A DNA stretch of 64,000 nucleotides from contig NC_090288.1 in NCBI RefSeq assembly GCF_037392515.1, forward strand, positions 4,519,501-4,583,500. Direction: 5' to 3'. The notes under the pieces are model-generated. The model saw nothing but the letters and a program-made list of their open reading frames with translations. It did not search any database and was not told the DNA's origin. Positions 24,563 to 64,000 of the stretch are shown here, piece by piece (position 1 is the first letter of the stretch; every line of letters starts with the position of its first letter). The position numbers and the translations under genes are program-made. This DNA comes from Haliotis asinina. Taxonomy: Eukaryota > Mollusca > Gastropoda > Lepetellida > Haliotidae.

Positions 24563-24631
24563 CGGCATGCTATGAGCCTTATAGATCGGGCAAACGCCCT
24601 TCGCAACAACAGTATCTGTGATGTTTCTTGA
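24428..24631 (+). CDS. Plus-strand frame crossing the array's right edge
   Basis: The frame contains ECPDLHRMVDRLRLGKSP and NMKICNLSDFHDKN, which are in every unit (unit 1: about 4085-4336). At the array edge it then continues in frame with a different tail (RHAMSLIDRANALRNN, ending CDVS) to TGA at 24629-24631. In full units the tail after DKN is SHATCLEETRSGRTGSS. First Met is at 24479. An AG after a pyrimidine-rich stretch could act as acceptor near 24428. The family is not recognised. The edge copy may preserve the ancestral 3' part of a gene whose exon was captured in the array. Confidence 0.3.
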   Translation, partial: ADRGLATFVKECPDLHRMVDRLRLGKSPIPSNMKICNLSDFHDKNRHAMSLIDRANALRNNSICDVS

Positions 24632-25001
24632 ACTATTGTCATGATGCATTTTTACTGCCTGAGAGGCAACGTGAGATAATCTTGTGACTAAGTGACACTA
24701 TGCACGCAGCCATTGACTGGAATTCCCTCTCAACATCCTCTTTAGGCACAGGCATCATGGTGAGTAAGCATAATTCACTGTATTCACTTTCATGTGTTTG
24801 TTTGAGTTCTGCAGCGGTCCTTGTTGCACGTTGAATACCCTGATGTTCATAACAAGATTGAAAATGTCGTTGTTTGGTATTAAAAATTCATTACCAATCC
24901 GTTGCTTAATCCAGCTTTAACCTGTCTTGTATTTTGTGTCTTGAGGAGAATTCACAAACAAACACATTTGTAAATGTTTTACTGCCACGTTCACGTTCCA
25001 T
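24563..25001. other. Non-repetitive spacer and 3' flank of dehydrogenase copy A
   Basis: Single-copy sequence between the array and the 28-bp minisatellite. From ~24900 it is recognisably related to 40436-40530, downstream of copy B (shared TCACAAACAAA and tACTGCCA/TTGCCA phrases), so the ancient gene duplication reaches this far. Confidence 0.55.
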
Positions 25002-25795
25002 GGGAAGATATGACTTGAGTAACCTCCGTGGGAAGATATGACTTGAGTAACCTCCCAGGTAAAATATGACTTGAGTAACCTCCCTGGTAAAGATATGACT
25101 TAAGTAACCTCCCTGGGAAGATATGACTTGAGTAACCTCCCTGGTAAAGATTTGACTTGAGTAACCTCCCTGGGAAGATATGACTTGAGTAACCTCCCTG
25201 GGAAGATATGACTTGAGTAACCTCCCTGGGAAGATATGACTTGAGTAACCTCCCTGGTAAAGATTTGACTTGAGTAACCTCCCTGGTAAAGATATGGCTT
25301 GAGTAACCTCCGTGGGAAGATATGACTTGAGTAACCTCCCTGGGAAGCTATGACTTGAGTAACCTCCCTGGGAAGATATGACTTGAGTAACCTCCGTGGG
25401 AAGATATGACTTGAGTAACCTAACTGGGAAGATATGACTTGAGTAGCATCCGTGGGAAGATATGACTTGAGTAACCTCCGTGGGAAGATATAACTTGAGT
25501 AACCTAACTGGGAAGATATGACTTGAGTAGCATCCGTGGGAAGATATGACTTGAGTAACCTCCGTAGGAAGATATGACTTGAGTAACCTCCCTGGGAAGA
25601 TATGACTTGAGTAACCTCCCTGGGAAGATATGACTTGAGTAACCTCACTGGTAAAGATATGGCTTGAGTAACCTCCCTGGGAAGATATGACTTCAGTAAC
25701 CTCCCTGGGAAGATATGACTTCAGTAACCTCCCTGGGAAGATATGACTTGAGTAACCTCCGTGGGAAGATATGATCTGAGTAACCTCCGTGGGAA
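25002..25795. repeat. 28-bp minisatellite, about 28 copies, downstream of dehydrogenase copy A
   Basis: The unit reads GGGAAGATATGACTTGAG followed by TAACCTCCCT with small variants (CCGT, AACT, GGTAAAG). Because 28 is not a multiple of 3 and the unit lacks stops in some frames, long minus frames appear (332 and 182 residues). They are artefacts of the repeat. The array sits inside sequence otherwise shared with the flank of copy B, which has no such repeat, so it expanded after the gene duplication. Confidence 0.95.
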
Positions 25796-26357: not shown

Positions 26358-29300
26358 TTATAAGCCTCCGATACAGACATATTTCATTTCCAGATAGTCA
26401 TCCATTCCGTATTTGCTGCCTTCTCTGCCGAGCCCAGACTCCTTCACTCCTCCAAACGGCGCCTCTGGGGCGTTGATGAAACCTTCATTAACACCACATA
26501 GGCCAATCTCCAACTTCTCTGCCACTCGCCAGATCTGGCTTAGGTTTTGTGAGTAGAAATATCCTGAAAGATTACATGACAACTCATGGTTCTTTTATGT
26601 TTAGATATATATTACTAAGCTTTTGAAAATAACAAAAAAAAAAACCTAACACCACTTGTAGCTTCACCTTTACATTGATGAAAAGTATCAGTTTGTAGAA
26701 CTTTTGAATAATGAGAAGATAATTTGAAGAAAATGATAATTTTCTTATTAATACTTGTTTTCTAAATGTTCACCCAAATTTGCTTTATGAGAATAGAATA
26801 CCAAACCTTGTTAAACAATTGACTCTATTACTCATTTATTATAAGAAATATCATACTTATTTTCTCAATTTTCAGGAAAAATTGCTTTCTTGGGCTAGAA
26901 TGCCAAACCTTGTTAATAATTGACTAATTTCTCTCCTCATTTTGAAAGACAACATATGTTCCCAACTGTCAAGGGAACTCCAGAATGTATGCGTTACCTG
27001 CCAAGCCAGAACTTGATGAATTTGCTATGGTTACTGCCTCTTCTTCTGTCTTGAACCTGTAAATCAGTCAAATGTGGTCTTAATTCTCTCTTCTAAGTTC
27101 TTTTTACTCATGTGATAATAAAACAAATTTCCAACTCTATTGCTTCATCTCCAGTGTTTATTATTCTGCATTAGGAGATGGTAACCAACTGACCTAAATT
27201 TCAGATGGCTCGAATGTGTAACTTGTCTTAATATAAGCTATCATCTCTGAGGAATTTAACATCCATGCCTAATAGTGGACAATTAACTAGACTCAGTCCT
27301 CAAGAGGAAATGTATTGGATCCCCTCTGATATCTCTATATCTTGATCCTCAATGCTATACATGAAAACATGATTCTTGTATTACGAAGAGACCATATTCC
27401 TTCCTCATAAGAAATACATGCCAAACGCAAAAATATGGACTGAATTCCATTCAAATATTCTGAAGTATCTTCTGTGTATCATTACATCCTATCATAAAGA
27501 CGTAAAAGAAACCTCAAGATTCTTTCATATCAATGTAGAAAGGTTAATCAGTACTATCAAATTATATTAAGTAAAATGAAGGATCCTTGAGTGGTTTAGT
27601 GTTTTTGAGTAGTTTATGCCAACAGTCGACCCAGCTTGATTGATAACAAAGTATTCTAATACTGAGAAGTTACATTACCCCTGATGATGCCTTACAGCCA
27701 ACCATATATGAGCAGTTATGGCATGTGATTCTGATTACAACTTTACTTGATAACAGGAGCAACTGGTCCAAATATTTCCTCTTTAGCACATCTCATTTCC
27801 ACAGTGACATTGGAGAGTAGCGTTGGCTCAAAGAAGTTGTCTCCCTTGTTTGACCTCTTGCCTCCACATACCAGACCAGCGCCTAGTCTCTTCGCATCTT
27901 CTACAATGCTTTCGACCTGTCAACAAGTGGCATATACGTTAACATAAACTCATACCACTATATCACAGAGTAAACAGAGTTTCTTAGCAATGACTTGGAT
28001 CACTTTCTCTTCTCTATACATACAAGCATCCGGATCGGTTATAGGAGTGTGCACCAACGCGCTTCGCTGATGCCAAGGTGAAATATACACATCTGAGTTT
28101 TAGTAAATCCTGATAGTTCATTACACCACGGCTGATATATGTGACGTTGAATTTTAATTTATGTATCCTAAGAACTTACCAAATGCCTGTCTGCCAGCCA
28201 TTGTTGATTACGAACTTTCGATCCTTGGTTAAACTTCACGACTTTACTTATCATGAACTAATTAATGTTTTAGTCATCATATGGCTGAATTATTGCCGAT
28301 ATAACTACAGATCTGAATGCACTCACGCACTCAAACGCCAGTGCCAAACATCCTTGTTTGACAACGGTCTCAGAATTTACACCGAAAACATGGCATCATA
28401 ATGGAATAAAGAAGTTGTTATCTACAACGTATCCGGCCTTGAAAGTTAATTTCACTTCTGTCTAAGACACAATTTCCCATTATAGAATACCGTATTTCCT
28501 CCAATATACGCCCGAGCTATTGTTTTTTCAACGGCGTTCCAGACCCGCCGCTGATTTGCGTTCACTGGATCGATGGTTACCGTAATTGATAGTGACCCGG
28601 CCTGTATTAGAGACCAGACGCATATTAAAGGAAATACGGTAAACGTTTTGGCCCAGACAACTTACCTTTTCCACAGCCTTAATGTTGATGAGAGGTCCCT
28701 GAGTTGTGCTGTCGTCAAGCCCGTCTCCGACTCTCAGCTCTTGCTTCATGACTTCAGCGAGACGTGCAACGTATTGGTCATACACTCCCTCCTGAACCAA
28801 CATCCGGTTGGCGCACACACACGTCTGTAGGAAACAGGAAACAGTGATCAATTGCGCTGTTTGCTTGCTGAACATGTTTGATTCAATATTTGTGTACATA
28901 GGTGACCACATTCATGGCACATCATCATCATCATCAGTCTGAAGACATTACGTCATAATTCCACAATCACGTGGTACTACTGATGACTCTGCTGTGTTAA
29001 GGCCATTACTAAGTCGCTGGACTCGAGCACGGGCATTCTGTAATGGCATACAACTAAACAGTGAACCGGTGCAAAGACCATATACCAGTATATGGACCAC
29101 TGTCAATCATCTAGGAACAGGCTGTGAAAGAAGGAGCGCATCTGAAGAGAGTTCCACATCATAGCAGAGTGCTTTAAGGATCTGGAACCAAATGGGTTTA
29201 TTTCAAATTTTAGGGAGGTGCACAAAGCAGGAATCTGTCAGATGAACGAAAGTTTCTCGGAATATTAGTCGGTAGGGTGCTCAGCAAAGTCAGAACAAAC

Positions 29301-32300
29301 CTGCCCACTACATCGAAACCTGCTGACGATGGTTCCTCGCACGGCTGCGTCAATATCAGCACTGTCGAACACGATGAAGGGCGCATTTCCGCCCAGCTCC
29401 AGGGACACTTTCTTCACTGTAGAAGCCGACTGCTGCAGCAGAATCTGTAATGGGAGACAAGTCTTAGTGAACATCTCAACGTTGAGCATCATCCTTGGCG
29501 ATGCAGGGTAAGACATCCGGTCAAACGTAGTCAGGCCCGGTGGGGTGGTTTGTTATACTAGTATTCTATTATACTCGCATGTTTGATTGAATAGGGTTTT
29601 ACTAATGTGCTTTTAGTTTCTTTCTGGCCCCTCAGACTCAACCCTTTGAATAGCAAGTTGACATTAGTCCATCAACAGCTGTAGCCGCAATAAAGATCTG
29701 AACAGTTCCGCGTTAGAATTGGTCTTCGACAACCCATGCTTGTCAGAAGAGGTGATAGAACCAAGTGGTCAGGTATGCTGACTTGGCTGACACGTCATCG
29801 TCTCTCAATTGCGTTAAACGATGTTTTATGTTGGATAATGTCGTCATTATCACCAGTTTGTTGGAGCAATCATATGTTCAATAACTCAGACCCTTACTTT
29901 GCCTATCCATCCCTATCCACCCGAATGTTTAGTCGGTGTTCATTTTCAACTGTGTAAACACATTTGTTTAAGACAAACTAAAGCTGCAGTGTTAGAGAAT
30001 TTAGGCATGGAGCCTGTATGTAACTACACTATGTGAATGAGTTGGGTTTTACGCCGCTTTCAACAATATTCAACCAAAATCACGACAGGAACACAGGTCG
30101 TGGTGTCACTGCTAGGATTAAAGACCTTTTTTAAAATATATATACATTTTGAGATGACCCCCGACTTGAAACACTTCACAGTACAATAGCGGACGACAGC
30201 AAGCGTCGAGCAATGAGAGGGCTTGCTTTGATAACATCCCTTTTATCCGGCCTTACCGTCCTCGCTATCGTCCGCCATTTGTGTCAAGATCATTTAGTTC
30301 AGGGTCAAAATCGGCTTTGAGTCGACTTCTAGAAATGAACAAAACACTGGTAGGTGTCATCACTGTTTACAATACGTTGAGAGCTGACACTTTTGTGGCC
30401 ATTCAGTGTTTAGTTTGAAGCGTTGGCAGCACGTATGAATAACCGTAAACAATAGAAAAACAAGTGTCCTTATGTATTGATTGAAGCGATTGTAACTTCA
30501 AATTGCTTTTTATGCGCTTGAATAACTAACGTTGATTCTGGCGACTCCTGCCTATCTCAAACATACAAAATGTGTCTTGCATATTTTGATTTGTGATATA
30601 TTTATTGCAGGTTGTGGAGATCGTGAGGCAGGAACATAGAAAAAACAATTTGGTTGAGGTTGACAAATAATATGTAGAAAAAGAAAACATAAAAACAACG
30701 GCATGTGTATCATTCTGTAGGTGAGATTGACTACATATTGAACGCGCCTGAAATAAACACGGTCCGCAAAAGCAACGTTTCACAGTGCATGACACAAATG
30801 TGCCTTTACCAACGTCAGATATCTGGACTCAGTGTACGCTGAATACATGACATGACTCAGTTGAATACATGACGAGCTTTGTGGATTTCAAACGGTATGA
30901 CGTTTCAGAGCTAATAATTGCTCAAACATCGTAGAATGAATAAATAGAAGTTGTTTTCAGTGAAACGTGTCATGTATTCATGTTCGTGAAGGACTTCAAG
31001 GACTTTTCTCACCTTCCCTACGACCGTGGAGCCTGTGAAAGAAATCTTCTTGATGATGGGGCTGGTGCACAGTGTGTTGCCAACGGAGGGAGCATTGTCC
31101 CGGGAACTGGTCACCACATTCAACACTCCGTCCGGGAGGCCCGCCTCCTTCGCCAACTGGTAGGAAGAGAGAGGCTACTGAATCATTGTCATCTTGCGGA
31201 ATCATTTGATAACTCTATCGACGTGATTTTGGGGTTGATAGAAATAATGAAATATTTTGCAGTCTCTAGAAACATATCATAGAGTCTGGGCAACACGTGC
31301 ACGCCTCGGGACTACTGACCACAACATGTCACCGGGGTCATTTTCAGTAGAATTGGTGTAAGCGTATGGGCTCCATTAGTGGAACTTATGTGATCAAACA
31401 ATATCTTACTGGACTAATATTTTCTCGGGTTTATTAACGTCTTCTTTCCAGACATTGACCTGTGCAAATCAAAGCTGCAATTTAATCTTGGATTATTGAG
31501 TGAATGAATTCTTCAAAATGAAATTGTTAAACTTTCTCATTCAGGGCGAATATTTTGCATGTCATAAATATGTTTGCAAGTTGTGTGGAAGACAGCGATT
31601 CAGTTTAAGGAGTTGAAGTTAAACAAGGTTAATGATGACAACAGTTTGCTCTGATTTTTAAAAGTCAGCTCAAGCATCAAGGAAAGGAACAATCAGCTCC
31701 GAGCTCTCCTCCTTTTTTTCCCTGAACGTCATCGAACCTGTCCTTGGTAACCGCTACGTACGTGACACATGGCCAGAGCTGAGAATGGGGTGTCTTCTGC
31801 TGGTTTCAAGACGACAGTGCAGCCGGCAGCAATGGCGGCACATGCCTTCCTGGTGATCATAGCACTCGGGAAATTCCACTGGAACACAAATATATTCAAA
31901 GCATGCAAAGACTCATTCATCAATTCAAGAACTGTTTTATCTGGTTAAGTTTTCGGGGTTTACAGATCATTGTTGTCAATCTCAAAAAGAACAAATCATG
32001 GAGCAAGCTTCCACTGTGCATACATCTGAAGACATCAAGTCGAAACAACCTATAAGCCGGCCATTCAGATAACGCGTTATGTCAAGACAACTTTTAATCT
32101 GACCAATCAGATTGCACGTCATGTCAGAATAACCTTTAATCTGATGATTCAGATTCGCACGTTATAAACCGAAATTGAAAGTCCCGATGTATTTCTGTTG
32201 AATTATGTAAACTCAAAACGATAGCATAAGCCAAAAAATCAAACAAAGCTATTTCGAACAAACAGTTACGGGATGTACAACTGATTCTATCAATTGAATT

Positions 32301-35300
32301 GTCTGAATTTCACTTCAAAGAAATAAACATCGACAGATTCAGCAAGGTACGTGGTTAGTACTGCCATACAATTTCACCCATCTGTAAGGCATTCGAGAAT
32401 ATTTTTTTTGTTTCAGATGTTATCGAGAAATTTGGCAAAGTGTTCTTTTAAAGAGTAGTCTGAAACAAAAATCACGAGTTCGAATTACAAGTGAGTGAGT
32501 GAGTGAGCTTAGTTTTACGCCGCTTTTAGCAATATTCCAGCAATATCACGGCGGGGGACACCAGAAAATGGACTTCACACATTGTACCCATGTGGGGAAA
32601 CGAACCCGGGTCGTCGGCGTGACGTGCGAACGCTTTAACCACTAGGCTACCCCACCGCCCCGAATTACAAATGTCATTTATGTTAAAGAATGCTGTTTTC
32701 TCATTGTCTGATGTCAACTTCCCGTTAGTCGATCAAGGCGGTGGTGGAGTAGCCTAGTGGTTAAAGCGTTCGCTCGTCACACCGAAGACCCAAGTTCAGT
32801 TCCCAATATGGGTACAATATGTGAAGCCCATTTCTGGTGCTTCTCGCCCTGATATTGCTGGAATGTTACTAAAGGCTTCGTAAAACTAAACTCACTCACG
32901 ATAAAACATTCCATGTTCACTCATGTGAAACAGCTTGGTAGAATCCACTGTCATAAGTCTGACTTACAGGCGTGATCATGCCGGCCACACCAATGGGCTG
33001 TTTCAAGACCAACATCCTCTTATTGGCTGTCGTTGACTGAATGACGTCACCACACACACGCCTGGCTTCCTCCGCATACCACTCGATAAACTCACCGGCG
33101 TTGTTAATCTCAAACAAGGCGTCTTTCAGAGGTTTGCCCTGCGGAATAGGCGATATTAAAAGTACTTTGATACTGGCAGTATCACTGATCATTGCACAAT
33201 TTATTATCAATGACAGTACCTTCACCTGACACCCTTAACTGCGAACTTCATAGATCAGAGAACGTGCATTCTGTGAAAGATGTATTTTTCAGTGGTGCCA
33301 CTGGGCATTAGTAAAGATGTAATGGTGTGCCCTTTACAATTTACGTGTATCGACAAGACTAATTGTTTTGAAACACCTCCGGACTTGGTGTGTGCCGCTT
33401 TTAGTTCGAGTAATGAGCTGTTGGAATATCATAGTTGTGCGCTTTCCCGTTTTAAAGACTAAAACATTTTTCTTTTCAAAGTCTGAATCCGCAGGTTTAA
33501 TTCATCAATCCTACTCTAATAAATATGCTTAAATATTCATTTTACATGTGCTTATCACATCTGGTTTCCAATTAAAACATTTCAGGTATATTCAGGTCTA
33601 ATTTCAGCCCTGGGCACATATCACCTGTGTTATTATCATGTTTGTGACGCCACTCTCAAAATTATGTCACAAGGTTCAAATGTTGACTTTGTTTCAGATT
33701 TGGAAGATATTTTGGGCTTTTAAGTTGGAAAAGACCAAAGCTCCATTGCCAGCATGTATAATCCACACGTGCTGAACACTGGCGTGTCATGTCCAACAAA
33801 GCATCTAAGAACTTCCACGAGTTGTTTGGGTTTGTTTTTTTTCTCACGTTTTCAGTTGTCAGTAGTTTAGCCAACTCCAGCTTGTTTTGATTGGTCAGAT
33901 CAAACCATTTCCTCAGAATCAAGCCCCGATCCTGTAAAAAATATTCCAAAACATTTTCAGTGACAATGAGTCAGTTATCCGAAAGGAGAACTACTTCATT
34001 AACAGCCACTATGTGTAAACTACTAAACAATATACCTCTTAAAATCTTGACAAATTAAAACCATACGCAGACATGAATAACTTCAGGGTATTTCTGCCTT
34101 ATCATCTACACATGGAGCCTACCTTTGCCGTGGTTTCCCTCCACCTGAGGAATGCAGCATTAGCTTTCTCTATGGCCTGCAGTGTGTCATCTGCGTTCAT
34201 GTCAGGGACAGAACCTATCGTCTTGCCTGTCGACGGGTTGGTGACTGAGGGGCAACAGATGGTGGAATATGAGAGAGACATCGGTGATGCCTGTTTCATG
34301 TTTATGAGGTTTTTGATAAACCAAGAAACATAATAGGTTAAAACTCAGGTTCGAGTCCACTGTCGCCGGGTCTTTTCATGCCTTCGAAGGAATGCAACTT
34401 GAAGAGTTAAAAACAAACATTTTGAACAAAAGGAAATGTCGCTTATACGTTATGGTGTAGCTGCGATAGTATTATGAAAGCGTTACACTTGGTATTGTAG
34501 AGACGTTTGTCCCTCTCAGACCCTTTTGAAGGTTTGTTTTATGGCTTTTGTGTAATTTCTTCACTTGCATTCCACATAAAAATCATCTTCGGTTAAAGAC
34601 TTGCTTGTGTTCAAACGTTAGATAAACACTTCCAGACAATATTTTAATGTGTTTTAATGAGCTTCAAAGACGAAGACCAAAGTCACATTCACATTAACAC
34701 ACATTTTTCCAACACCTTTTGATAATGTCTTGAATGGTGGCCAACACCACAACACCTCATCCTTTACTATTACCCATGAATACTGCATTAATTAATCAGA
34801 ATAATCTTACTTTGGTATACCGAGCCAGACTTAGCTGTGACCCACTGTCCATCCACAAATGCCTTGTCAAAGAGGAAGCTGCTGATGCTGCGGACACCCA
34901 ATGCTGCTGCAGGTGTGACTGCATCTTTGGTTGTGATGTGAAATACACGCAGCTGGGAAAGTTTCAGATGTCGGGACACTATTTGAACAGATCGCGAACA
35001 CATGTAGCGACCCTGAAAATTTTAAAAAATATCGCTAGCAACCAAAAATGTTTTAGACTCATTCTAAACTAAAATATTTTGTAACAACGAAAATCATACA
35101 AGGTCCGTTCATGAATGAAACTATCACATGTTTTTGATGATGATGCCTTTCGTACTATACAAATCAACATGCGTTTACAGTAACACATTGGGTGATTGAG
35201 TTGGAACAGTATCCCCGGTCCATCAAGGCAAATCTGTATCATATGAACCTGTGAAGATCCGTGCTAGAGTTGGTCCTCAGCGATCGATGTTTGTCGTAAG

Positions 35301-41586: not shown

Positions 41587-41706
41587 CTACTGACATAACC
41601 TCTACTGACATAACCTCTACTGACATAACCTCTACTGACATAACCTCTACTGACATAACCTCTATTGACATAACCTCTATTGACATAACCTCTACTGACA
41701 TAACCT
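41587..41706. repeat. 15-bp tandem repeat, exactly 8 copies, in the 3' UTR of copy B
   Basis: Unit CTACTGACATAACCT with occasional CTATTGACATAACCT. It begins 32 bp downstream of the stop codon at 41738 on the minus strand. Copy A has nothing similar here. Confidence 0.95.
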
Positions 41707-41737
41707 CTCTCGAACATGTTTCAAAATAACACAGCAA

Positions 41738-44700
41738 TTATAAGCCTCCGATACAGACATATTTGATCTCCAGGTAGTCATCAATTCCATATTTGCTGCC
41801 CTCTCTGCCGAGCCCTGACTCCTTCACTCCACCAAATGGCGCCTCTATGGCGGAGATAAGTCCATCATTAACTCCACACAGGCCAACCTCCAACTTCTCT
41901 GCTACTCGCCATATCTGGCTCAGGTTTTGTGAGTAGAAATATCCTGTAAGACAATTCATGGTTCTATTATATACAGATATCAATTATTCATTTTTTGAAA
42001 ATCACAAATCTTTCCTACCTGGACTCATAAATACATGAAAAAGGAATAGATTAAATAATTGTCATTTTATGATACACTGATAAAATAACCATCTTCAATC
42101 AGACTGTCCAAAATGAGACTTTTCTGTCTGAATTTCCAAGACAAGTCTGTCACCACCTTGTTGCCATACCTGCCAAGCCAGAATTTGATGAGTTTGCTAT
42201 GGCAACTGCCTCCTCCTCTGTCTTGAACCTGTAAATCAATCAAAATGGTCTTAGTTCCCTTCATCATTTTTACTCAGGAACGAGTCCAAAGAATATTTCC
42301 TAGCTCTGTATTTCTTCATCTTCAGTGTTTATGCTTCATTAGAACAAGGTCAAGCGCTTCTTGTTCATATAACTTGACTTAAATGTGAAATGGCTAGAAT
42401 GTATGGCCTGTCTGTCAGCCATCGTGTTTGTTTCTGTGCCTAATGTGGGAAATTATATAGGACTTATTTTTCACAAGAACATTTATTTGATGTGTTCATA
42501 AAGGAAATACTTTAGTCTAGAGTTTTTTCTGTGAAATATATAAATAGTAAGGGCATTTGATAATCAGCGGTGTACATGAAAACATGATGCTTGTATTGTG
42601 GAGGGACTATATCCCTTCCTCATAAGATCTTGAGATATGTCAAACAAAAACATTACCTGAATTCAATTCACGTAACATGAATTTTGTAAACTAACTTGTT
42701 AACTATTTTCAGTGTGCTTCATATGTATGACTATAGGATTACACACAACTAAAATGTGGGAAAAGAATGCGAAATTCCATTCATATTATCTGGCCAAAAG
42801 GCATTAACTATAAAAAAAATCTATTTTTAGTTTAACTTCTGTTGAATAACTTATGTCAAAGATGCCGCACCATAACTGATATTACGTTACCCAGATGGCA
42901 CATACATATACTAATGTGAGAATGGTTAAGGCCCATGATGCAGATTACATCTGTGTTTCCAACATACTTGATAACTGCAGCCACAGGTCCAAATATTTCT
43001 TCTTTAGCACATCTCATTTCCACAGTGACATTGGAGAGTAGTGTTGGTTCGAAGAAGTTCTCTCCCTTGTCTGATCTCTTGCCTCCATATAGCAGCCCGG
43101 CGCCTAGTTTCTTGGCATCCTCCACGATGCTTTCTACCTGTCAACAAGTGGAACAAACAAGAGCCATCAAATCATCATCTCACAGTTACTTAAAGCCCAT
43201 ATTGTTTCCATGGAAATCGAGGAAAATCAGAAAGCTAAAATTCTACAAATACCAAAGGCACCACCTTGAGATCTGTTTCATATATCTTATATTGTAACAT
43301 TGATAGATTTTGAGCAGTTTTTGAGTTATGCTCCTGAAACAAAGAGCACATCTTCCTTTTGAGAAGAAGTCCAAATTGTTTCCATGGAAATCCAGTCACA
43401 AAAAAATGCCAAATCACTGCAAATAGCAGATGGCCCCAGTTTAGGTTTTGTTTGATACATCTAACAATTTTTGTTGGAAACTTTTATATGTTTTTTGAGT
43501 TATGCTCCGGCAATGAAATGATTATGGTGGGACAGGCAGACAAGGTGTTTACAATATCATTCCAATACAGTAGGCTAGGGCGATAAATAAACGAAATAAA
43601 AACAATATAATCATTGTGACTGAGTAAAGATCTACTGCTACTTTTACTTCCATCTAAACAATTCGTGTTAGAAACAAACAGAATCATATTTTAGCTGGAG
43701 ACCACATTACCTTGTCCACAGCTTTGCTGTTGATGAGAGGTCCCTGAGTTGTGCTGTCGTCAAAGCCATCCCCAACTCTAAGCTCTTGCTTCATGACTTC
43801 AGCGAGGCGTGCAACGTATCGCTCATACACTCCTTCCTGAACCAATATCTTGTTGGCGCACACACATGTCTGCAGAAAACAGGAAGCAGTGATCAATTGT
43901 GCTCTACACCTGATGAAAACTGAATGTTTGATTCATGCTTGTGTGAAGATCTGGTGCACTATAGCCAAGTTAATCAATTACACGTGTTGGCACACAGAAT
44001 TGCCCAAGTTGATATGACATTATGATGTGTTATTTTTGCAGATATGCAATTTTCATGACATCATTCAGAATTCACGGCTTGTCTAGTTGTACGAGTTTCA
44101 ACATTGTATTAGAGCCACTGGCATTACGGCTCAATGAAAACTAATAATATAAAAAAATATTTCAAAATAATCAGCATCTTGTCACAGTTGTCTGGGGATG
44201 AAATTAATATAATCATTGCATTATATGGTCCAAATGCAAATATTAAGAACTGCTTGTAGTAAGAGCTGACAAACACGATCAGCTGATCAAGCTCGCTGAC
44301 TTGGTTGATACATGTCTTCATATTGCTAATGCTGTTGATCATTGGATTGTGTGGTCTAGTCTCGATTATTGTCATATAGCTGTTATATTGCTGAGTGTGG
44401 TATAAACTCACACACACAAACCATATGACTGATGGTCTTAATGTTTATCACTGCACTGTATGGTCCAGACTCAAACATTTACAGACAGCTGTTGCATTTC
44501 TTTACAGGGTATTCAACAAACAAAACAGACATCACTTACCTGTCCACTACATCGAAACTTGCTGACCATTGTACCTTGGACGGCTGCCTCAATATCAGCA
44601 CTGTCGAACACAATGAACGGCGCATTACCACCCAGTTCCAGGGACACTTTCTTCACTGTCGAAGCTGATTGCTGTAGCAGAATCTGTAATGGGAGACAAC

Positions 44701-47700
44701 TCTTAGTGAAGATCTCAACCATGAACACCAACAGGTAAGAAAACAAGTCTCCAAATCAAATTTCTCGTGTAGTCAGAAATCAGTGAGGATTGTAAGTCAT
44801 TTCAGTATGATTCTACACCATGTTTGCAATATTCCAGCATAACAATTGAATGTTTGAGCAAGTTTTACGATGCTCTTAGCAATATTCCATCAATACCAGA
44901 AATGGGCTTCACACATTGTACTCATGTGGGGAATCGAGCCTGGGTCTTCAGCATGACATGTTTTAACCACTTGGCTAACCCACAGCCCCTTTTGAATGTT
45001 TGAACCTAAACTCAGCCAAGCAAGGTTTCACAACATATGACACAAACGTGGCTTGACAAATGACAGGTATCTGGCTTCATAGTCCGCTCACCTTCCCTGT
45101 GACCGTGGAGCCTGTGAACGAAATCTTCTTGATGATGGGGCTGGCGCACAGTGTGTTGCCAACAGAGGGAGCATTGTCCCGGGAACTGGTCACCACATTC
45201 AACACTCCGTCCGGGAGGCCTGCCTCCTTCGCCAGCTAGAAGGAGAGAGGCTACTGAATTATTGTCATGTGATTGGATAGTTTTGTTGCTGTAAAAACTT
45301 CATGTTTTGGCTAGTAGAGAAATATTTTCAAGTTGGATTCTCTAAACACAAAGCACAGGTTCTGTGGCAAAACGTTATAAGACTGCTGGCCCGATCACAG
45401 CAGCTAGGATCATTTTCAATAGGATTTACTTCAAGAAACAGTATTTTACTGCACCATTTCCATGGATGATATAAGAATCTTCTGTGTAATACTGCTGTTA
45501 AAGTTACTATTTATATCAACCATGAAAATATGAATGCTGTGAATTATCAAAATGAAAACATTAAACTTTCCTATCTAGGAAGTGAACTTATCTCTAAACA
45601 CATTAAACTACATAACTATGTTTGTAATTTGTGTGGAAGAGGGCCATGTAATTTGCCAGAATTTACAGGGGGCAATATCAGTCATGACAAGTGCTTGCAC
45701 TGATGTCCTCAAAGTAAGTTCAAACATTAATGAAAGGAACAAGTTGCTCAGAGTGGTCCTCTGTATTTTCGGTCTTCGTATCAATGATGACAAGAGCTTG
45801 CAATGATGTTCTCAAAGTAAACTCAGTTACAGATGGACAAAAAACATTGATGACAAGAGTTTGTACTCAAAGTAAATTCAAACATCAACGGAAGGAACAT
45901 TCTGCTTAGAGTGGTCATCTGTATTTTCCCTGGGTGACTGAAGCTTCCCTTGATACCAACTACTCACCTGACACATGGCAAGAGCTGAAAACGGGGTGTC
46001 TTCTGCTGGTTTCAAGACGACGGTGCAGCCAGCAGCAATGGCTGCACATGCCTTCCTTGTGATCATAGCACTGGGGAAATTCCACTGGAACACAAATATA
46101 TTCAATGTACAACTGCTGTGAGACTCTCTTATAATATAAAAACAATTTTTTGCAAACAATGCCGATACTAACGAAGCGTTCTTCTTCATTTTCATAGCAA
46201 TATTTTCACACTTTTTAGCCACCTGTGCTTATTTTGAGACATGAAAAATGTTACAGATGGTTGACTTGGTTGATTGTCAGTACACTGTTTCATCTTTCAT
46301 TAAATCATTTCACTTCAAAACGCCAACAAAAGATAAAATGTGAACATTATCATAACATATAGCATAGATCTGAAACGAAGCAGTATTGCCATACAATTTT
46401 GACGATCTTTTCATACATTCCAGAACATCTTCAGTTTTCAAGTATAATCCAGAAATTCGGAAAAATATTTTTACAGATTAGGCTGAAATATAAATCACCA
46501 GATTGAAAAAAGTTTAAGAAGCTGTTTTCTGATTGGTTCAGCTGTGCATCACTTCCATTTTCACTGAACAATCACTGGACAATCTTGGTGGCGTACACTG
46601 TCATACAATTCCCTTATGATTGACTTACAGGTGTGATCATGCCAGCCACACCAATGGGCTGTTTCAAGACCAGCATCCTCTTGCTGGCTGCTGTAGGTGG
46701 AATGACGTCACCATACACACGTCGAGCTTCCTCTGCATACCACTCAATAAACCCAGCAGCATAGTTAATCTCACCTATGGCCTCTTTCAGTGGTTTGCCC
46801 TGTAGGATATGAAATGTCAAGTGTATCTTGATACTTGCAGCATTAATGAAGATTACAGAATATCAGATCAAAACCTCACTTCACCTACCATCCTTACCTG
46901 TTAAAATTGCAGTCCATCCAGGGGCAGATCCAAAATTTAGAAAAAAGGCGACGCACATAAATCAGTAAGTCCAAAGGTTAGAGGGTATTTTTTTTCAAAA
47001 GAGAGAATGGGAGCCTGCCACTACCTCTGTGCATCACTTCTAAATGTTATTCCAAGACTTTAAATAATCCTAACATTCTTCCATCTAGAGGTGCAAGCAA
47101 ACACATTTAGTTAATTCACAGCAAGGCTAAATGGTTTCTCTTGCACATCAAGAACAGTATCTAATACACAACCTTACAAATAACACATGGCACTTCTACA
47201 GAGAGGCATAACCTCTGTGCAGTATGTCACAATATATAAGACTACATAAAAAGTACTGTAATGTTTCTCGGGCATCGGTGCATCATTTTTATTGGTACGC
47301 ATGACAATTTTTCATTGCCATTAAAAAAATCATTCTGACTTGGCTACATACGGATCATCCATTTGTCCACTAAAAGAATGAGAGTCTGTAACAAGTGGGA
47401 CTGAATCTACAACTCATCAACACATGCTAAACTTCCAAGCTGTGTTTCTGAGAGAAGAAAACATAAAAATGTGTCCCTCCCATGTCACTTCTTTTTCCAT
47501 CAAACATTTTAAAAAAAGTCCAAACGCCCTCGTCACTTTTGAAGAAAATGTGCCTGAGAAACATTGAATTGTTTTTTTTCTGCCAAACGTTACAGTCCTC
47601 ATATTAAGTAGTCTGCTCAAAAGAAGTAAAAGAACACCTGTTCTTTTACACAATAATGAATTTGCATTGCCATGAAATGATTAACATTGTCAAGCCAAAC

Positions 47701-50474
47701 ACACACTACTTAAAAGTTGTTCCAGAGCACCTTTTCTTTCATATGACATGTTAACTTTAGAAATCTTAAAGAACTGCATGATCTTTGAATCTTTCGAGAA
47801 GTATATGCTTGCCTTGATCACTTCACATCAGGAGCTCATACTGAACAAAAACATAATAATCCAGTGTTTACATATATGGCTGGTACAAGAAGAGAAAGGC
47901 CACAAACTATAGAATTTGTTTTCTCACATTTTCAGCTGTCAGAAGTTTTGCCAACTCCAGCTTGTTTTGATTGGTCAGATCAAACCACTTCCTCAGAATT
48001 AAGCTCCGTTCCTGTAAAAAAGATTTCTGAGTAAATTTTCAGACAGACTGAGTAAGTTATCAAAATGGGACTATTTCATTAACAGCCAGTATGCATATGT
48101 GTAAACTACTTAACATTATTCTTGTTAAAGGCTCAACAAATTAAAACCATACGCAGACATGAATAACTTCAGGGTATTTCTGCCTTATCATCTAGATATG
48201 GAGCCTACCTTTGCCGTGGTTTCCCTCCACCTGAGGAATGCAGCATTAGCTTTCTCTATGGCCTGCTGTGTGTCATCTGCGTTCATGTCAGGGACGGAAC
48301 CAATCGTCTTGCCTGTTGACGGGTTGGTGACTAGAGGGCAACAGATGGTGGAATATTAGAGAGCCATGGGTGATGCCTGTTTTCTTAACCCTTTCATGAC
48401 ACGCACTGACATAGATGAAGTGTGGACAAACCAAGAATAAGAGGACAAACACAAGCCCACAGTCACAGGACTGCATCGTGCCTTGACAAGGGATGCAACT
48501 TGCTATGTCAAACAGGAAATGTATCATTGAAGAGTTATGGAAAATCAATATTGTTGTTGTGCTTAGTATCGTGAATAACATCTAGTCGTTTCTAGTCCCA
48601 TTAAACACTCTGACCCTAGAAGTACCTGAATACCTATGTAAACATCAACTGGCTTTAAGGACTTGTTAGATACAAATGTTTGATAGTAACTTCATGAAAA
48701 CATGTATGACATGCATTCTTAATGCACAATTAGAACCAAAAGGAACAAGATGAATGTCGAATTCACATTCACATTAATCATCTGACAAAACTACCACATC
48801 ATAATATAGTCCAAAACATTTCCTAATTTCTTGACTAACTGATAGTTTATGGGTTAAAATGATTGCTACAACACCTTTTCCTTAACCCTGTAGTATTACA
48901 GCATTAATTCAAAAGAATAATCTTACTCTGGTATACCGAGCCAGACTTAGCTGTGACCCACTGCCCATTGACAAATGCCTTGTCAAAGAGGAAGCTGCTG
49001 GCGCTGCGGACGCCCGATGCTGCAGGTGGCACTGTATCCATGGCGATGTGAAATACACGGAGTTGGGAAAGTTTCAGTTGTCTTGACAATATCTGTACTG
49101 ATCGTGAACACATGCAACACACCTGAAAAATTTGAAAGCATTACTTTTCACCCACATTAAATTCTGCTGGCACTAAGAAAATCATACAGTATTTCTGATC
49201 CACCACAGCACATCTGCTTCAAATGGGATTGGGAGGGAGGCCCAAAGTAATATACAGATCTCATTTGTTTATCATGTGACATCCACAAGCAGACCTATGG
49301 TTCTGAAAAACCTAGAAACATAATCAGAGCGAACTGGGATTCAAACCTAGGAACATAGGTTTCTGACACACCCAATCCTGCACAGTGAACTGCATCGCCT
49401 CATGACACGGCTACCTATGACGTCTTTGTCATATATGTGGCTTATTCATGTGCATAGGTGACTTACTAATATCAGACTGTACCTGAAGTTGTCTAAGAAA
49501 CTTACTACTTCCATGAATCAAAGAGTATGGTCCTGACACAAGTTGAAAGATAATCAAACCCCCCAAAATCAAAGGAAAGGTTTGTCTTGTGATGGCTTAA
49601 AATTGCCTGTATATCAGAGAGCTGGTGTATATGCATGATCAGTCATCTCAAATTGAGCATATACATTATTTGAACAAAAATCTGAACATAAAATATAATG
49701 AATAGCTTATTCTCTATGGTAGGGGTACCGCCATTATGGTGCCACATATGCATTGAAGGGGTACTGCACTTGATGTCACAACTTCATCACCATTTCCACT
49801 GTAACTACTGGTTTCACTGAGCTCAGAAGTGTATATATGTGTTTCAAAAATCATTTCTGAAATGCATAAAGCACTGTAATCATATTATAATATGCCAATG
49901 TGGCTAAAATTACCATTCCAACATTAGGCAGCTGATACCATGCAGAGACTTAAAAATGGTCCCTAGAAACATGGTGCTCACTAGACAAGACTCAATAATT
50001 AAGAGTTTCATATTACATTAAGAATACAACTACATAGACTTCAAATTGAAATTGCAGGTCATTTTTTGAGACACGATGTTTCTGAATCATCTATCAAAAC
50101 TCTCACAAGACTCGCATCACACAGTATGACAGCACCTATCTGGATAAATGACTTCTCCCTGAGCTAAGGAGTGATGAGTAGATCTACCACACTATCTATT
50201 AAGACATTCACCAGCCAGACCAGCTGATCATGTCAGTGCATCCGATCTTGGCGATTCTCGCGTACCGTCTCTAATGCAGTTCGGAGTGTGACACACGAAT
50301 GTTACTTCACAAACCCTGCATCAATGTACCGTTGTTCGCTCGTGCGTTTGACTGATACTGAGACAGCACAGTCTCGTCAATCACTCACCGCCGCAGATGC
50401 ACTCGTGAGCTCACAAATGACACATAACCGCAGACTAGTGTCGGTCAACTTCTTGCTAAGATTGTACGTACCAT
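41738..50474 (-). CDS. ALDH5A1: Succinate-semialdehyde dehydrogenase, mitochondrial, copy B
   Basis: Same reaction and compartment as copy A. Coding exons: ATG at 50474-50472, then 49122-48927, 48330-48209, 48011-47928, 46799-46629, 46084-45968, 45235-45092, 44683-44540, 43869-43711, 43137-42968, 42228-42170, 41943-41738. Every exon has the same length as in copy A except exon 2, which is two codons shorter; total 524 aa. Seen: [24 protein letters not shown] (Glu295), FRCSGQTCVC (catalytic Cys329) and [14 protein letters not shown]. The Ser of GLIS (Ser487) matches human Ser498, and Arg323 and Arg202 match human R334 and R213, so the whole known substrate-carboxylate pocket is kept. The N-terminus [18 protein letters not shown] is basic (targeting peptide). 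EARRVYGD keeps Tyr as in human. This copy looks like the conserved enzyme; copy A lies 3' to it in the same orientation. Confidence 0.96.
43201..43530. repeat. Two-copy diverged tandem repeat (~176 bp) in an intron of copy B
   Basis: TTGTTTCCATGGAAATC recurs at ~43201 and ~43377, and TTTGAGTTATGCTCC recurs at ~43320 and ~43495, in the same order and at similar spacing. Strongly diverged; origin unknown. Confidence 0.6.
44275..44415 (+). mobile_element. SINE-like fragment (CCCATGCTTGT family), 5' truncated
   Basis: The middle and tail are recognisable: GCTCGCTGACTTGGTTGATA, GCTGTTGATCATTGGATTGT, CATATAGCTGTTATATTGCT. It lies in an intron of copy B and is not present in copy A. Confidence 0.6.
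44868..44992 (-). mobile_element. tRNA-like SINE, minus orientation
   Basis: Reads on plus as AGTTTTACGATGCTCTTAGC ... GTGGGGAATCGAGCCTGGGT ... TTTTAACCACTTGGCTAACC. In an intron of copy B, absent from copy A. Confidence 0.65.
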
Positions 50475-56919: not shown

Positions 56920-59900
56920 TTACTTCTTGTTTCCGTGGTGGTGAAGACGCTGGAATAAACATAGGTCATTAGGCTTCAAATCCTTGAGCACGACATAATT
57001 ATTGGGTTCTGAATGGGGAGTAGAAACGGGGAGTTTATGTGGGGATTTACGGTTATACCCAGTCAAACACGGATGTGTCGAAACTGAAGAGACGTGCGAG
57101 TTATTCAAAGTTCAACAAAAATGGTGAAATCCACAAATTGGTGACTCAAGTAAGAATACGCAGGGGCATAACTTTCACTTCGAAACAAGCGTATTTCGCC
57201 ATAACAGACATAACTGTATATGTATCAGGTTTACACGGTATCGCATGCACGTATATAAAGGAATAATGTCCTTACGTGGTGAAGATAAGTTTCGAACTCA
57301 ACCTTGTTCACCGAACCATTTGCTGTAAGTATACAAAAATATATAACTCTACATACATTTAACCTCTTTTTGAGTTATATCATTTTCTATGGTACACGTC
57401 GATGAAAGTATGATATTGTTTTACTCTGCATAACTCCCGGTGGGAATAGAATCGCATAGTCTGTTTAATGAACTTAAAAACACATCAAACAACTTGCTGT
57501 CTGGAAAACATAACCTAAATTCAGTGGAAGTATGGAAAATACCTGTATGACACAGACTTTCGCAATAAGAACCCCATCCATAAAAGATTTTCAGTAATTG
57601 TAACTCAAAAAGGGTTTATCAAAATTGTGTTTAAAGTTATTTTCCACATAGAACTGACCGTCGCCGTCGAATGCGGCAGTTATTGCCTTGATCCCGGCGT
57701 CGTCGAGGGTGATCCAGCGGCGGTGACCGATATCGAAGGCGTGGAAGAGGCTCACGGCGTAGGCATGCATGTCGTGGTTCCGGTTGGTGGAACAGTGGAA
57801 GAACTCAGCCTCCGTCAAACGCTTATCATCTGCAGTGAGGGTAGAAATAAAGTCGGGTTTTCTTCTCCTCTATTTCGGCTAAATATGCCTTCAATCGCCA
57901 ATGGCGTAAAGTAAGACTTAAACCCAACTAGGGTCCATGCAGGTAGCGAAAGTACTGTAAGTCCTCGAGGACCTCATTCTCTTCCCACAGAGGTTACTCC
58001 TGTCATATCTCCCTACGTATGACAGGAGTAACCGCTGTGGGAAGAGAATGCGTGCATGGATCTCAGTCTGGTGATCTACCTTCAGCTGTTGGCGACCTGT
58101 AGCCTGTTTTTATATTGTATTGTCTTCGTAAACAAATTATTTTCAGATTTATCGCTGCTTTTAAACACCATCGGATAGTTATTTTGCAGGCTTTAAAATT
58201 GGTTACCGAAGAACTTATATTTATTGTGTATGGAAAACCTTTATCGTCAGCTGAAATATTGCCGAGATGACGTTAAATCTTAACTCACTTACTCACTCAC
58301 TCACTCACTCACTAAAGGTAGGCGTCGAGCGATAACCGAAGGCTTTACGACATAAACTAACACTTCACTTAAACCGCCTCTTTGGATTAATAAGTGCTTG
58401 AAAATTCATGATATGTATCTTCAACTACATACACTCACACGCTCATGCATCTCCTGATATCTCTCCATGGTATCATTTCAACAGTTCGGGGAAGACGGGA
58501 AATCTTTTCACATATGTGGAATTACTACTTAATTCAAAGCCATATTTACTCTAAAATATCAATCAATCAATCAATAACAAATCCTGTGTTTATCCCGTGT
58601 AACATTGTGGCCTGATTAATAATGACGCTTTTGAAACCATGCTGCCAAACATCACAACAGATGCATAAAGGTATACATAGATATAATTATAGGGTCGCAA
58701 CTCGGTTTTATTTCATCAAATTTTTAAAAATAATTGTCCATCCATATTATAACTTTTTGAAAGACTGTTACCAAGTCATAGAAAAATCATTTAATAAAGA
58801 GAATTTACACAGTTAGTGAATAACCTTTTGAAAACATTTTTAAGCCGGAATAGAGTTGAGCCTAGAAGCAGGTAACAGAACAGTGCCTGTCTATACGTAC
58901 CGTTCCTGTCACAGCCGACGAGGTAGGTCATCATCTCGTCGTTGGAGATACTGCCGTCACGATCTTCGTCCTTGAGCAGAAACAGGCGGTCTGTTGCCGA
59001 CTCGATGGAAGCATAACTATCAAAGAAAATGGCTGTAAAATATCCGCTCTTTTGAGAATGGTAATCTTCCTAATAATTTCCAGATACATTTAAAGATTTT
59101 TTTATATTCTTTCACACAAAGAAATGAAAACATTGATAATAAAATAATTATACTGTAACAGACATTAAGAACTATTACAGTTTGGCGTTTTACCTTTTCT
59201 AAATTTCTTGTGATGACTACAGTATGTTTATGACAGATGGATAATATTGTAGACCATGTGGTCATATAGGGTTCATAATGACAATTCTTTGTTGTTTTTT
59301 AAAAGGGAAGTTAGCGGACATTTGGAACAACAAGCGATGTATACTACGTATCATAAACTGAAACTTCAGTCAACTAATGTATGTATAGCCACTTACTTCA
59401 GTCAACTAATGTATGTATAGCCACTTACTTCAGTCAACTAATGTATATATAGCCACTTACTTCAGTCAACTAATGTATATATAGCCACTTACTTCAGTCA
59501 ACTAATGTATATATAGCCACTTACTTCAGTCAACTAATGTATATATAGCCACTTACTTCAGTCAACTAATGTATACATATATAGCCACTTACTTCAGTCA
59601 ACTAATGTATATATAGCCACTTACTTCAGTCAACTAATGTATACATATATAGCCACTTACTTCAGTCAACTAATGTATATATAGCCACTTACTTCAGTCA
59701 ACTAATGTATACATATATAGCCACTTACTTCAGTCAACTAATGTATATATAGCCACTTACTTCAGTCAACTAATGTATATATAGCCACTTACTTCAGTCA
59801 ACTAATGTATATATAGCCACTTACTTCAGTCAACTAATGTATATATAGCCACTTACTTCAGTCAACTGTTCTAAACTAGATTTGGCAAAACATTCAAAAT

Positions 59901-61130: not shown

Positions 61131-64000
61131 CTTTGCTGTATCCTCGACTGGATCCCTACTCTATCCCAGACCAGACCACATACTCTATCTTTGACTGTAT
61201 CCTCGACTGGATCCCTACTCTATCCCAGACCAGACCACATACTCTATCTTTGACTGTATCCTCGACTGGATCCCTACTCTATCCTAGACCAGACCACATA
61301 CTCTATCTTTGACTGTATCCTCGACTGGATCCCTACTCTATCCTAGACCAGACCACATACTCTATCTTTGACTGTATCCTCGACTGGATCCCTACTCTAT
61401 CCTAGACCAGACCACATACTCTATCTTTGACTGTATCCTCGACTGGATCCCTACTCTATCCTAGACCAGACCACATACTCTATCTTTGACTGTATCCTCG
61501 ACTGGATCCCTACTCTATCCTAGACCAGACCACATACTCTATCTTTGACTGTATCCTCGACTGGATCCCTACTCTATCCCAGACCAGACCACATACTCTA
61601 TCTTTGACTGTATCCTCGACTGGATCCCTACTCTATCCTAGACCAGACCACATACTCTATCTTTGACTGTATCCTCGACTGGATCCCTACTCTATCCCAG
61701 ACCAGACCACATACTCTATCTTTGACTGTATCCTCGACTGGATCCCTACTCTATCCTAGACCAGACCACATACTCTATCTTTGGCTGTATCCTCGACTGG
61801 ATCCCTACTCTATCCCAGACCAGACCACATACTCTATCTTTGACTGTATCCTCGACTGGATCCCTACTCTATCCCAGACCAGACCACATACTCTATCTTT
61901 GACTGTATCCTCGACTGGATCCCTACTCTATCCCAGACCAGACCACATACTCTATCTTTGGCTGTATCCTCGACTGGATCCCTACTCTATCCTAGACCAG
62001 ACCACATACTCTATCTTTGGCTGTATCCTCGACTGGATCCCTACTCTATCCTAGACCAGACCACATACTCTATCTTTGACTGTATCCTCGACTGGATCCC
62101 TACTCTATCCTAGACCAGACCACATACTCTATCTTTGACTGTATCCTCGACTGGATCCCTACTCTATCCCAGACCAGACCACATACTCTATCTTTGACTG
62201 TATCCTCGACTGGATCCCTACTCTATCCTAGACCAGACCACATACTCTATCTTTGACTGTATCCTCGACTGGATCCCTACTCTATCCCAGACCAGACCAC
62301 ATACTCTATCTTTGACTGTATCCTCGACTGGATCCCTACTCTATCCTAGACCAGACCACATACTCTATCTTTGACTGTATCCTCGACTGGATCCCTACTC
62401 TATCCTAGACCAGACCACATACTCTATCTTTGACTGTATCCTCGACTGGATCCCTACTCTATCCTAGACCAGACCACATACTCTATCTTTGACTGTATCC
62501 TCGACTGGATCCCTACTCTATCCTAGACCAGACCACATACTCTATCTTTGACTGTATCCTCGACTGGATCCCTACTCTATCCTAGACCAGACCACATACT
62601 CTATCTTTGACTGTATCCTCGACTGGATCCCTACTCTATCCCAGACCAGACCACATACTCTATCTTTGACTGTATCCTCGACTGGATCCCTACTCTATCC
62701 CAGACCAGACCACATACTCTATCTTTGACTGTATCCTCGACTGGATCCCTACTCTATCCTAGACCAGACCACATACTCTATCTTTGACTGTATCCTCGAC
62801 TGGATCCCTACTCTATCCTAGACCAGACCACATACTCTATCTTTGACTGTATCCTCGACTGGATCCCTACTCTATCCTAGACCAGACCACATACTCTATC
62901 TTTGACTGTATCCTCGACTGGATCCCTACTCTATCCTAGACCAGACCACATACTCTATCTTTGACTGTATCCTCGACTGGATCCCTACTCTATCCTAGAC
63001 CAGACCACATACTCTATCTTTGACTGTATCCTCGACTGGATCCCTACTCTATCCCAGACCAGACCACATACTCTATCTTTGACTGTATCCTCGACTGGAT
63101 CCCTACTCTATCCCAGACCAGACCACATACTCTATCTTTGACTGTATCCTCGACTGGATCCCTACTCTATCCTAGACCAGACCACATACTCTATCTTTGA
63201 CTGTATCCTCGACTGGATCCCTACTCTATCCCAGACCAGACCACATACTCTATCTTTGACTGTATCCTCGACTGGATCCCTACTCTATCCCAGACCAGAC
63301 CACATACTCTATCTTTGGCTGTATCCTCGACTGGATCCCTACTCTATCCTAGACCAGACCACATACTCTATCTTTGGCTGTATCCTCGACTGGATCCCTA
63401 CTCTATCCTAGACCAGACCACATACTCTATCTTTGACTGTATCCTCGACTGGATCCCTACTCTATCCTAGACCAGACCACATACTCTATCTTTGACTGTA
63501 TCCTCGACTGGATCCCTACTCTATCCCAGACCAGACCACATACTCTATCTTTGACTGTATCCTCGACTGGATCCCTACTCTATCCTAGACCAGACCACAT
63601 ACTCTATCTTTGACTGTATCCTCGACTGGATCCCTACTCTATCCCAGACCAGACCACATACTCTATCTTTGACTGTATCCTCGACTGGATCCCTACTCTA
63701 TCCTAGACCAGACCACATACTCTATCTTTGACTGTATCCTCGACTGGATCCCTACTCTATCCTAGACCAGACCACATACTCTATCTTTGACTGTATCCTC
63801 GACTGGATCCCTACTCTATCCTAGACCAGACCACATACTCTATCTTTGACTGTATCCTCGACTGGATCCCTACTCTATCCTAGACCAGACCACATACTCT
63901 ATCTTTGACTGTATCCTCGACTGGATCCCTACTCTATCCTAGACCAGACCACATACTCTATCTTTGACTGTATCCTCGACTGGATCCCTACTCTATCCCA
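61131..64000. repeat. 59-bp satellite array, at least 48.6 copies, open at the window end
   Basis: The unit contains CTGTATCCTCGACTGGATCC and CAGACCACATACTCTATCTT and recurs every 59 bp without visible indels. The main variants are TATCCCAG/TATCCTAG and TTTGACTG/TTTGGCTG. Each unit has a GGATCC site. Long plus frames here (for example 61722-62054) exist only where CCCAG replaces the TAG of CCTAG, so they are not genes. Since 59 is not a multiple of 3, each frame cycles through all three translations. Confidence 0.98.

Follow-up and report, generated by a model that had tools for sequence, protein, structure and literature searches.

A tandem SSADH-like gene in the abalone Haliotis asinina carries Asn at the position of Ser498 and may have a rebuilt substrate entrance

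The window—the whole stretch of DNA that was analysed, 64,000 nt in length (C9:4519501-4583500)—holds two complete SSADH-like genes, one of which (copy A) has Asn at the position of Ser498 in human ALDH5A1 while the other (copy B) has Ser. The reading that we prefer, with a probability of roughly 55%, is that copy A encodes an intact, constrained ALDH5-type dehydrogenase whose substrate entrance has been rebuilt, and which would be weaker for succinic semialdehyde (SSA) and probably shifted or broadened toward other acidic aldehydes. Under this proposal, the whole SSADH gene would have been duplicated in tandem to give copy A, which would have kept its catalytic centre (Cys340, Glu306, the Cys340/Cys342 pair, Arg213, and Arg334) and rebuilt its entrance through S498N, L496F, G155F, and Y159N, with Glu at position 162. 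The two Arg would still hold a carboxylate, and Phe at 155 and 496 together with Asn at 159 would swap large and small side chains around the mouth. Because Asn498 is larger than Ser and has no hydroxyl, and because the rim is altered, SSA would be expected to fit more poorly, and the enzyme may accept other acidic aldehydes. Copy A would then function as an SSADH of higher Km whose range of acidic aldehydes is shifted or broadened, leaving the ordinary SSADH work to copy B—a role open to copy B, since searches of the assembly with two exon queries brought up no SSADH-grade gene besides these two.

The two genes are encoded on the minus strand with 11 exons each, in models built from homology and splice sites. 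All ten introns of copy A and all ten of copy B are bounded by GT..AG, and none of the 11 exons in either copy contains an internal stop. When the assembly (1.14 Gb, 159 contigs) was searched with exon 11 of copy B, both last exons were recovered at C9:4545861-4546064 and C9:4561241-4561444, matching their positions in the window; copy A matched at 90% and copy B at 100%, with the next candidates at 46% and 42% (7/7 candidates scored). A query with exons 7 and 8 matched the two copies at 79–96% and the next candidate at 47% (16/16 scored). No third SSADH gene was found in the 1.14-Gb assembly by these two queries among the best candidates scored, nor was an extra copy detected within 10 kb on each side of the window when the exons of copy A served as queries. 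Both proteins pass the curated cut-off of the SSADH model TIGR01780 (646.35 bits), with scores of 686.2 bits for copy A and 701.5 bits for copy B, and among solved structures copy A finds its best match in human ALDH5A1. An Arg-containing N-terminal extension, as in the human enzyme, suggests a presequence, and copy A is probably mitochondrial. Coordinates of the genes, diagnostic codons, and possible conversion tracts are collected in the table.

Table. Features of the two SSADH-like genes, in positions of the window
Feature	Positions	Strand	Remarks
Copy A, SSADH-like (ALDH5-type) gene	26358..35003	-	522 aa; 11 exons, homology and splice sites
Copy A, exons 1-6	35003-34811, 34244-34123, 33931-33848, 33138-32968, 31878-31762, 31156-31013	-	
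Copy A, exons 7-11	29444-29301, 28824-28666, 27916-27747, 27056-26998, 26563-26358	-	exon 11: tctttcag, then GATATT...TTATAA
Copy A, exon 4	32968..33138	-	highest Ka between copies (0.103)
Copy A, codon TTT	33112..33114	-	Phe at human Gly155 (ALDH2 Val120 position)
Copy A, codon AAC	33100..33102	-	Asn at human Tyr159 (ALDH2 Met124 position)
Copy A, codon TGT	29310..29312	-	Cys at human Asn335, catalytic loop
Copy A, codon TTC	26478..26480	-	Phe at human Leu496 (ALDH2 Asp457 position)
Copy A, codon AAC	26472..26474	-	Asn at human Ser498
Copy A, exons 2-3 and intron 2	33835..34296	-	88% identity with 48382-47915 of copy B; candidate conversion tract around exon 2
Copy A, exon 6 and edges	31008..31192	-	93% identity with 45268-45087 of copy B; candidate conversion tract
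Copy B, SSADH gene	41738..49113	-	520 aa; 11 exons, homology and splice sites
Copy B, exons 1-6	49113-48927, 48330-48209, 48011-47928, 46799-46629, 46084-45968, 45235-45092	-	
Copy B, exons 7-11	44683-44540, 43869-43711, 43137-42968, 42228-42170, 41943-41738	-	
Copy B, codon TGT	44549..44551	-	Cys at human Asn335, catalytic loop
Copy B, codon TCC	41852..41854	-	Ser at human Ser498

The Asn that the first-pass annotation had noticed in copy A, opposite Ser in copy B, is confirmed by reading of the exons and by alignment to human ALDH5A1 (2w8n, 2w8p), which runs from residue 58 to the end; in the numbering of 2w8n, with the chain end set to residue 535, it falls on residue 498. The spacing reported at the time also holds, at 158 residues C-terminal of Cys340, as do the retention of both Arg, the catalytic Cys, and Glu, and the Phe in place of the neighbouring Leu496. 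Both copies resemble human ALDH5A1 in the two-Cys catalytic loop and in R213, K214, E306, R334, C340, C342, and E515—a set that includes the catalytic Cys340 and Glu306 and the ALDH5-specific Cys342, Lys214, and Arg334. Unlike the human enzyme, copy A carries S498N, L496F, G155F, and Y159N, and both copies carry N335C. A study that covered 2191 ALDH5 and 3011 other representative sequences attributes to SSADH a conserved carboxylate triad, with Ser498 common to all SSADHs (PMC11681614). Both copies have Arg213 and Arg334, and copy B also has Ser at 498 (a site where Ser or Thr is expected); as read from its residues, copy A is thus a member of the ALDH5 family and yet lacks the complete SSADH substrate triad (R213, R334, S498).

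The earlier annotation had allowed that Asn might be common at this position in the family. Among the best 80 of at least 583 bacterial relatives, 76 had a readable site 498 (L002, L029, L030, and L069, too short when read from the match start, were left out of the counts), and these have Ser in 40 cases, Thr in 34, Ala in two, and Asn in none; one of them, L017, combines Ser or Thr at 498 with Asn at 335. Nine plasmid relatives, from 30 listed of 2853 records, likewise include no Asn (Ser 6, Thr 1, Arg 1, Ala 1), and Ser occupies the site in all six solved enzymes with alignments (human, 3jz4, 4v6h, 8of1, 8s33, and 3ek1). Asn is therefore absent at 498 from the bacterial, plasmid, and solved relatives counted. 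The five solved bacterial enzymes—E. coli GabD 3jz4, 4v6h, 8of1, 8s33 (named SSADH), and 3ek1 (named aldehyde dehydrogenase)—belong to the same family by sequence, with the RxxGQTCVC loop; all five differ from copy A in having Ser498 and from both copies in having Asn335. Since Thr is common at 498 in the bacterial relatives, the trait conserved in that sample is, by residue counts, a hydroxyl (Ser or Thr) and not strictly Ser. Ser is likely the ancestral state, given that human, copy B, and about half of the bacterial relatives have it and that most of the others have Thr.

Could the Asn instead stem from an error of sequencing, assembly, or splice modelling? We regard this as very improbable. 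Codon 498 reads AAC in copy A and TCC in copy B, a two-base difference for which a single wrong base call cannot account, and codons 155, 159, 496, and 500 likewise differ by two bases each between the copies. The exons are in frame with GT..AG introns, and a search of the assembly gives the last exon at two places, one 90% and the other 100% identical to the query. Nothing points to an artefact, and the observation is real.

The change at 498 is accompanied by others around the substrate tunnel. A drug-docking paper names residues of the tunnel and mouth of ALDH2 (PMC10650273), from which we took 14, leaving out two catalytic ones at the tunnel bottom. With ALDH2 residue letters confirmed from PDB and the mapping made by mafft alignment (numbering after residue 114 adjusted by one), these correspond to SSADH positions 150, 151, 154, 155, 159, 162, 206, 209, 210, 213, 334, 341, 496, and 498. 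V120 maps to G155, M124 to Y159, K127 to F162, and W177 to R213; F296 and C303 were placed at R334 and 341 by counting from the catalytic Cys, not read off the alignment. The SSA-carboxylate residues 213, 334, and 498 occupy the positions of ALDH2 W177, F296, and F459. The two copies differ at 45 alignable sites, where human sides with copy B at 18 and with copy A at 7, and is ambiguous at 20. With human as the outgroup, one distant animal on which the polarity rests, this amounts to 18 A-specific versus 7 B-specific changes, an excess that is only just significant (binomial p 0.043); maximum-likelihood branch lengths under LG+G4 are 0.073 for copy A and 0.025 for copy B. Four of the 18 A-specific changes (G155F, Y159N, L496F, and S498N) hit tunnel positions versus none of the 7 B-specific ones. 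The hypergeometric p for this clustering is 0.0011 (0.0086 without 498), and against columns of matched variability it is 0.0013 (again 0.0086 without 498), values to be taken as a guide because the finding itself had singled out site 498 and the tunnel list was chosen after the divergence of exon 4 had been seen.

Other features of these changes vary in strength. A residue absent from the bacterial relatives counted was acquired in 8 of the 18 A-specific changes (sites 121, 155, 159, 175, 332, 487, 496, and 498) versus 0 of the 7 B-specific changes, a difference that is not significant (Fisher p 0.057), and copy A has changed at the strongly conserved sites 152, 155, and 332; site 155 is Gly in 73 of the 76 bacterial relatives (best 80 of at least 583). 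Two more tunnel positions differ between the copies and are unpolarised, namely 154 and 162, the latter being Glu in copy A, Gly in copy B, and Phe in human. By its nonsynonymous/synonymous ratio, exon 4 does not stand out (Fisher p 0.38), and it gives p 0.012 when nonsynonymous sites are taken alone; its Tyr to Cys change in copy A falls at position 175. A candidate change beside Arg213 in exon 4 (RRVCGD) was rejected, since the 2w8n numbering places R213 in the ITRK of exon 5. The first-pass annotation had suggested a changed or relaxed substrate preference on the strength of position 498 and its neighbour. Judging from the residues, the direction of that suggestion holds with support beyond one site, in that positions 155, 159, and 496 make a change of the pocket likelier; the shift in preference itself is a prediction.

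Copy A could alternatively be drifting under relaxed constraint toward loss, with the pocket changes as early damage. The faster amino-acid branch of copy A, its changes at 152, 155, and 332, and an SSADH score below that of copy B all fit such decay. Against it, Ks between the copies is ~0.35 and yet the 11 exons of copy A are free of stops, frameshifts, and broken splice sites, its catalytic residues are intact, and its changes cluster at tunnel positions and are not evenly spread. The pairwise comparison gives Ks 0.353, Ka 0.052, and Ka/Ks 0.15 (bootstrap 0.10-0.20), a ratio that averages both branches and is not near 1 as in a pseudogene. On these codon statistics, copy A appears selectively constrained, its description as an intact gene stands, and decay appears improbable.

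The copies most likely go back to a tandem duplication that took in the entire SSADH gene. Their intron sequences can be aligned in places, and ~350 bp before the start codon both carry a similar stretch of 130 bp (80% identity), so that the duplicated unit was genomic DNA. In the open-licence literature, we found no report of ALDH5A1 gene duplication in molluscs. The upstream element itself (35480-35352 in copy A, 49375-49246 in copy B) has by eye a stretch like a tRNA B-box and is perhaps an old SINE that predates the duplication. Divergence is uneven along the genes, with Ks of ~0.11 in exons 2 and 6 versus 0.32-0.53 in the remaining exons; synonymous differences are fewer in these two exons, which were chosen after the table had been seen, than elsewhere (Fisher p 0.00026). 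The low Ks of exons 2 and 6, and the surrounding tracts that are among the most similar DNA, suggest that gene conversion may have acted round both exons and spared exons 4 and 11. Exon 3 by itself has an ordinary Ks of 0.32.

Elsewhere in the window, a tandem array with a unit of ~4.07 kb extends from ~3000 to 24570 or beyond (the end near 24570 was judged by eye) and continues into locus L156. Six in-register copies, at 2999, 7065, 11125, 15213, 19285, and 23326, are identical over a 300-bp piece, and two hits ~4.1 kb apart occur in the 10 kb that precede the window. Four minisatellites are present, at 24997-25795, 41587-41708, 59363-59867, and 61131-63998, with respective units of 28, 15, 32, and 59 bp; the first two are located past the 3' ends of copy A and copy B. 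Of the longer other ORFs in the window, eight were scanned with no Pfam match, a result that holds too for the three array ORFs covered, and Rfam gave no match in the 64-kb window at gathering score. Relatives on contigs classed as viral were also found at 67 loci (L081-L147; longest open stretch read, frames as they came). With 21 duplicates and 10 loci without a residue at 498 excluded, sites 213/334/335/498 read W/G/T/G in 31 distinct relatives, R/R/N/S in three, R/R/N/A in one, and L/S/N/A in one; by these residues, the 31 W/G/T/G relatives, most at ~37% identity, are another ALDH type.

The main rival to our preferred reading is that copy A remains an ordinary SSADH, with a high Km and no new substrate; the Asn and its companion residues in the tunnel would then be tolerated or would adjust the kinetics (as, for example, in an isoform of higher Km that serves other tissues or other SSA levels). 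The Ka/Ks of 0.15, the TIGR01780 score above its cut-off, the retained Arg, Cys, and Glu, and the frequency of Thr at 498 (34 of 76 bacterial rows from the best 80 of at least 583) are all compatible with this. Additional support comes from the Ser420Ala variant of Cyanothece SSADH, reported to show a 9-fold higher Km, a 2-fold higher kcat, and 25% of kcat/Km retained (PMC7510979), so that loss of this Ser alone need not change function. The Ser lies near the SSA carboxylate, its equivalence to human S498 being our own assignment; the Cyanothece enzyme belongs to a single-Cys family, was engineered to Ala and not Asn, and has no other tunnel changes. On the contrary, the four A-specific tunnel changes (155, 159, 496, and 498), each unseen in the bacterial relatives and each with the human residue in copy B, exceed one tolerated swap. 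We hold an unchanged substrate range to be the less likely outcome, although a serious one.

Other characterised enzymes bear on how readily such a pocket might acquire substrates. In the laboratory-evolved Q262R variant of E. coli Sad, SSA activity is reported as unchanged and activity on two sugar phosphates as raised (PMC11480449), which indicates that a single substitution at a triad position can widen the substrate range with SSA activity undiminished. Sad is of another SSADH family, and its changed site, six residues before the catalytic Cys, corresponds to human R334, which copy A retains; the gain was measured there, and for copy A it is predicted from sequence. The malic semialdehyde dehydrogenase of Acinetobacter baumannii uses an Arg/Arg/Ser triad for a related C4 semialdehyde and, unlike copy A, keeps the Ser (Ser447; PMC11353897).

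A second departure from human SSADH is common to both copies. The loop before the catalytic Cys reads RNTGQTC in human and RCSGQTC in copies A and B, with Cys in place of Asn335. Asn occurs at this site in 75 of the 76 bacterial relatives (best 80 of at least 583; L078, the one without it, is of another type), in 8 of the 9 plasmid relatives (from 30 listed of 2853 records), in 6/6 solved enzymes with alignments, and in four further ALDH loci of the same genome with a readable segment (L148/L176 taken as one, L175, L179, and L180). N335 is reported to hold the catalytic loop in its orientation through hydrogen bonding, and N335K is known as a disease variant in humans (PMC10371128, PMC2823781). 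Because two whole-genome queries gave no other SSADH gene, the animal appears, on this genomic evidence, to rely on a Cys335 SSADH, or else the distance between its enzymes and human SSADH is greater than the first-pass annotation supposed. More speculatively, copy A might now be a dehydrogenase for a different carboxylate aldehyde, working through a tunnel rebuilt round its two Arg, and the animal-wide SSADH without Asn335 might have, in its third Cys beside the Cys340/Cys342 redox switch, an altered or added redox control; we put this extended version forward tentatively.

These observations have implications for both the enzyme family and the animal. A constrained natural paralogue without Ser beside one with Ser is a ready pair for working out what residues determine specificity. 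In humans, Asn335 has been linked to SSADH deficiency, and its replacement by Cys in both genes found implies either that the residue is replaceable or that these enzymes differ. SSADH is an enzyme of GABA breakdown, and GABA triggers the settlement of abalone larvae, which gives GABA breakdown added interest in abalone.
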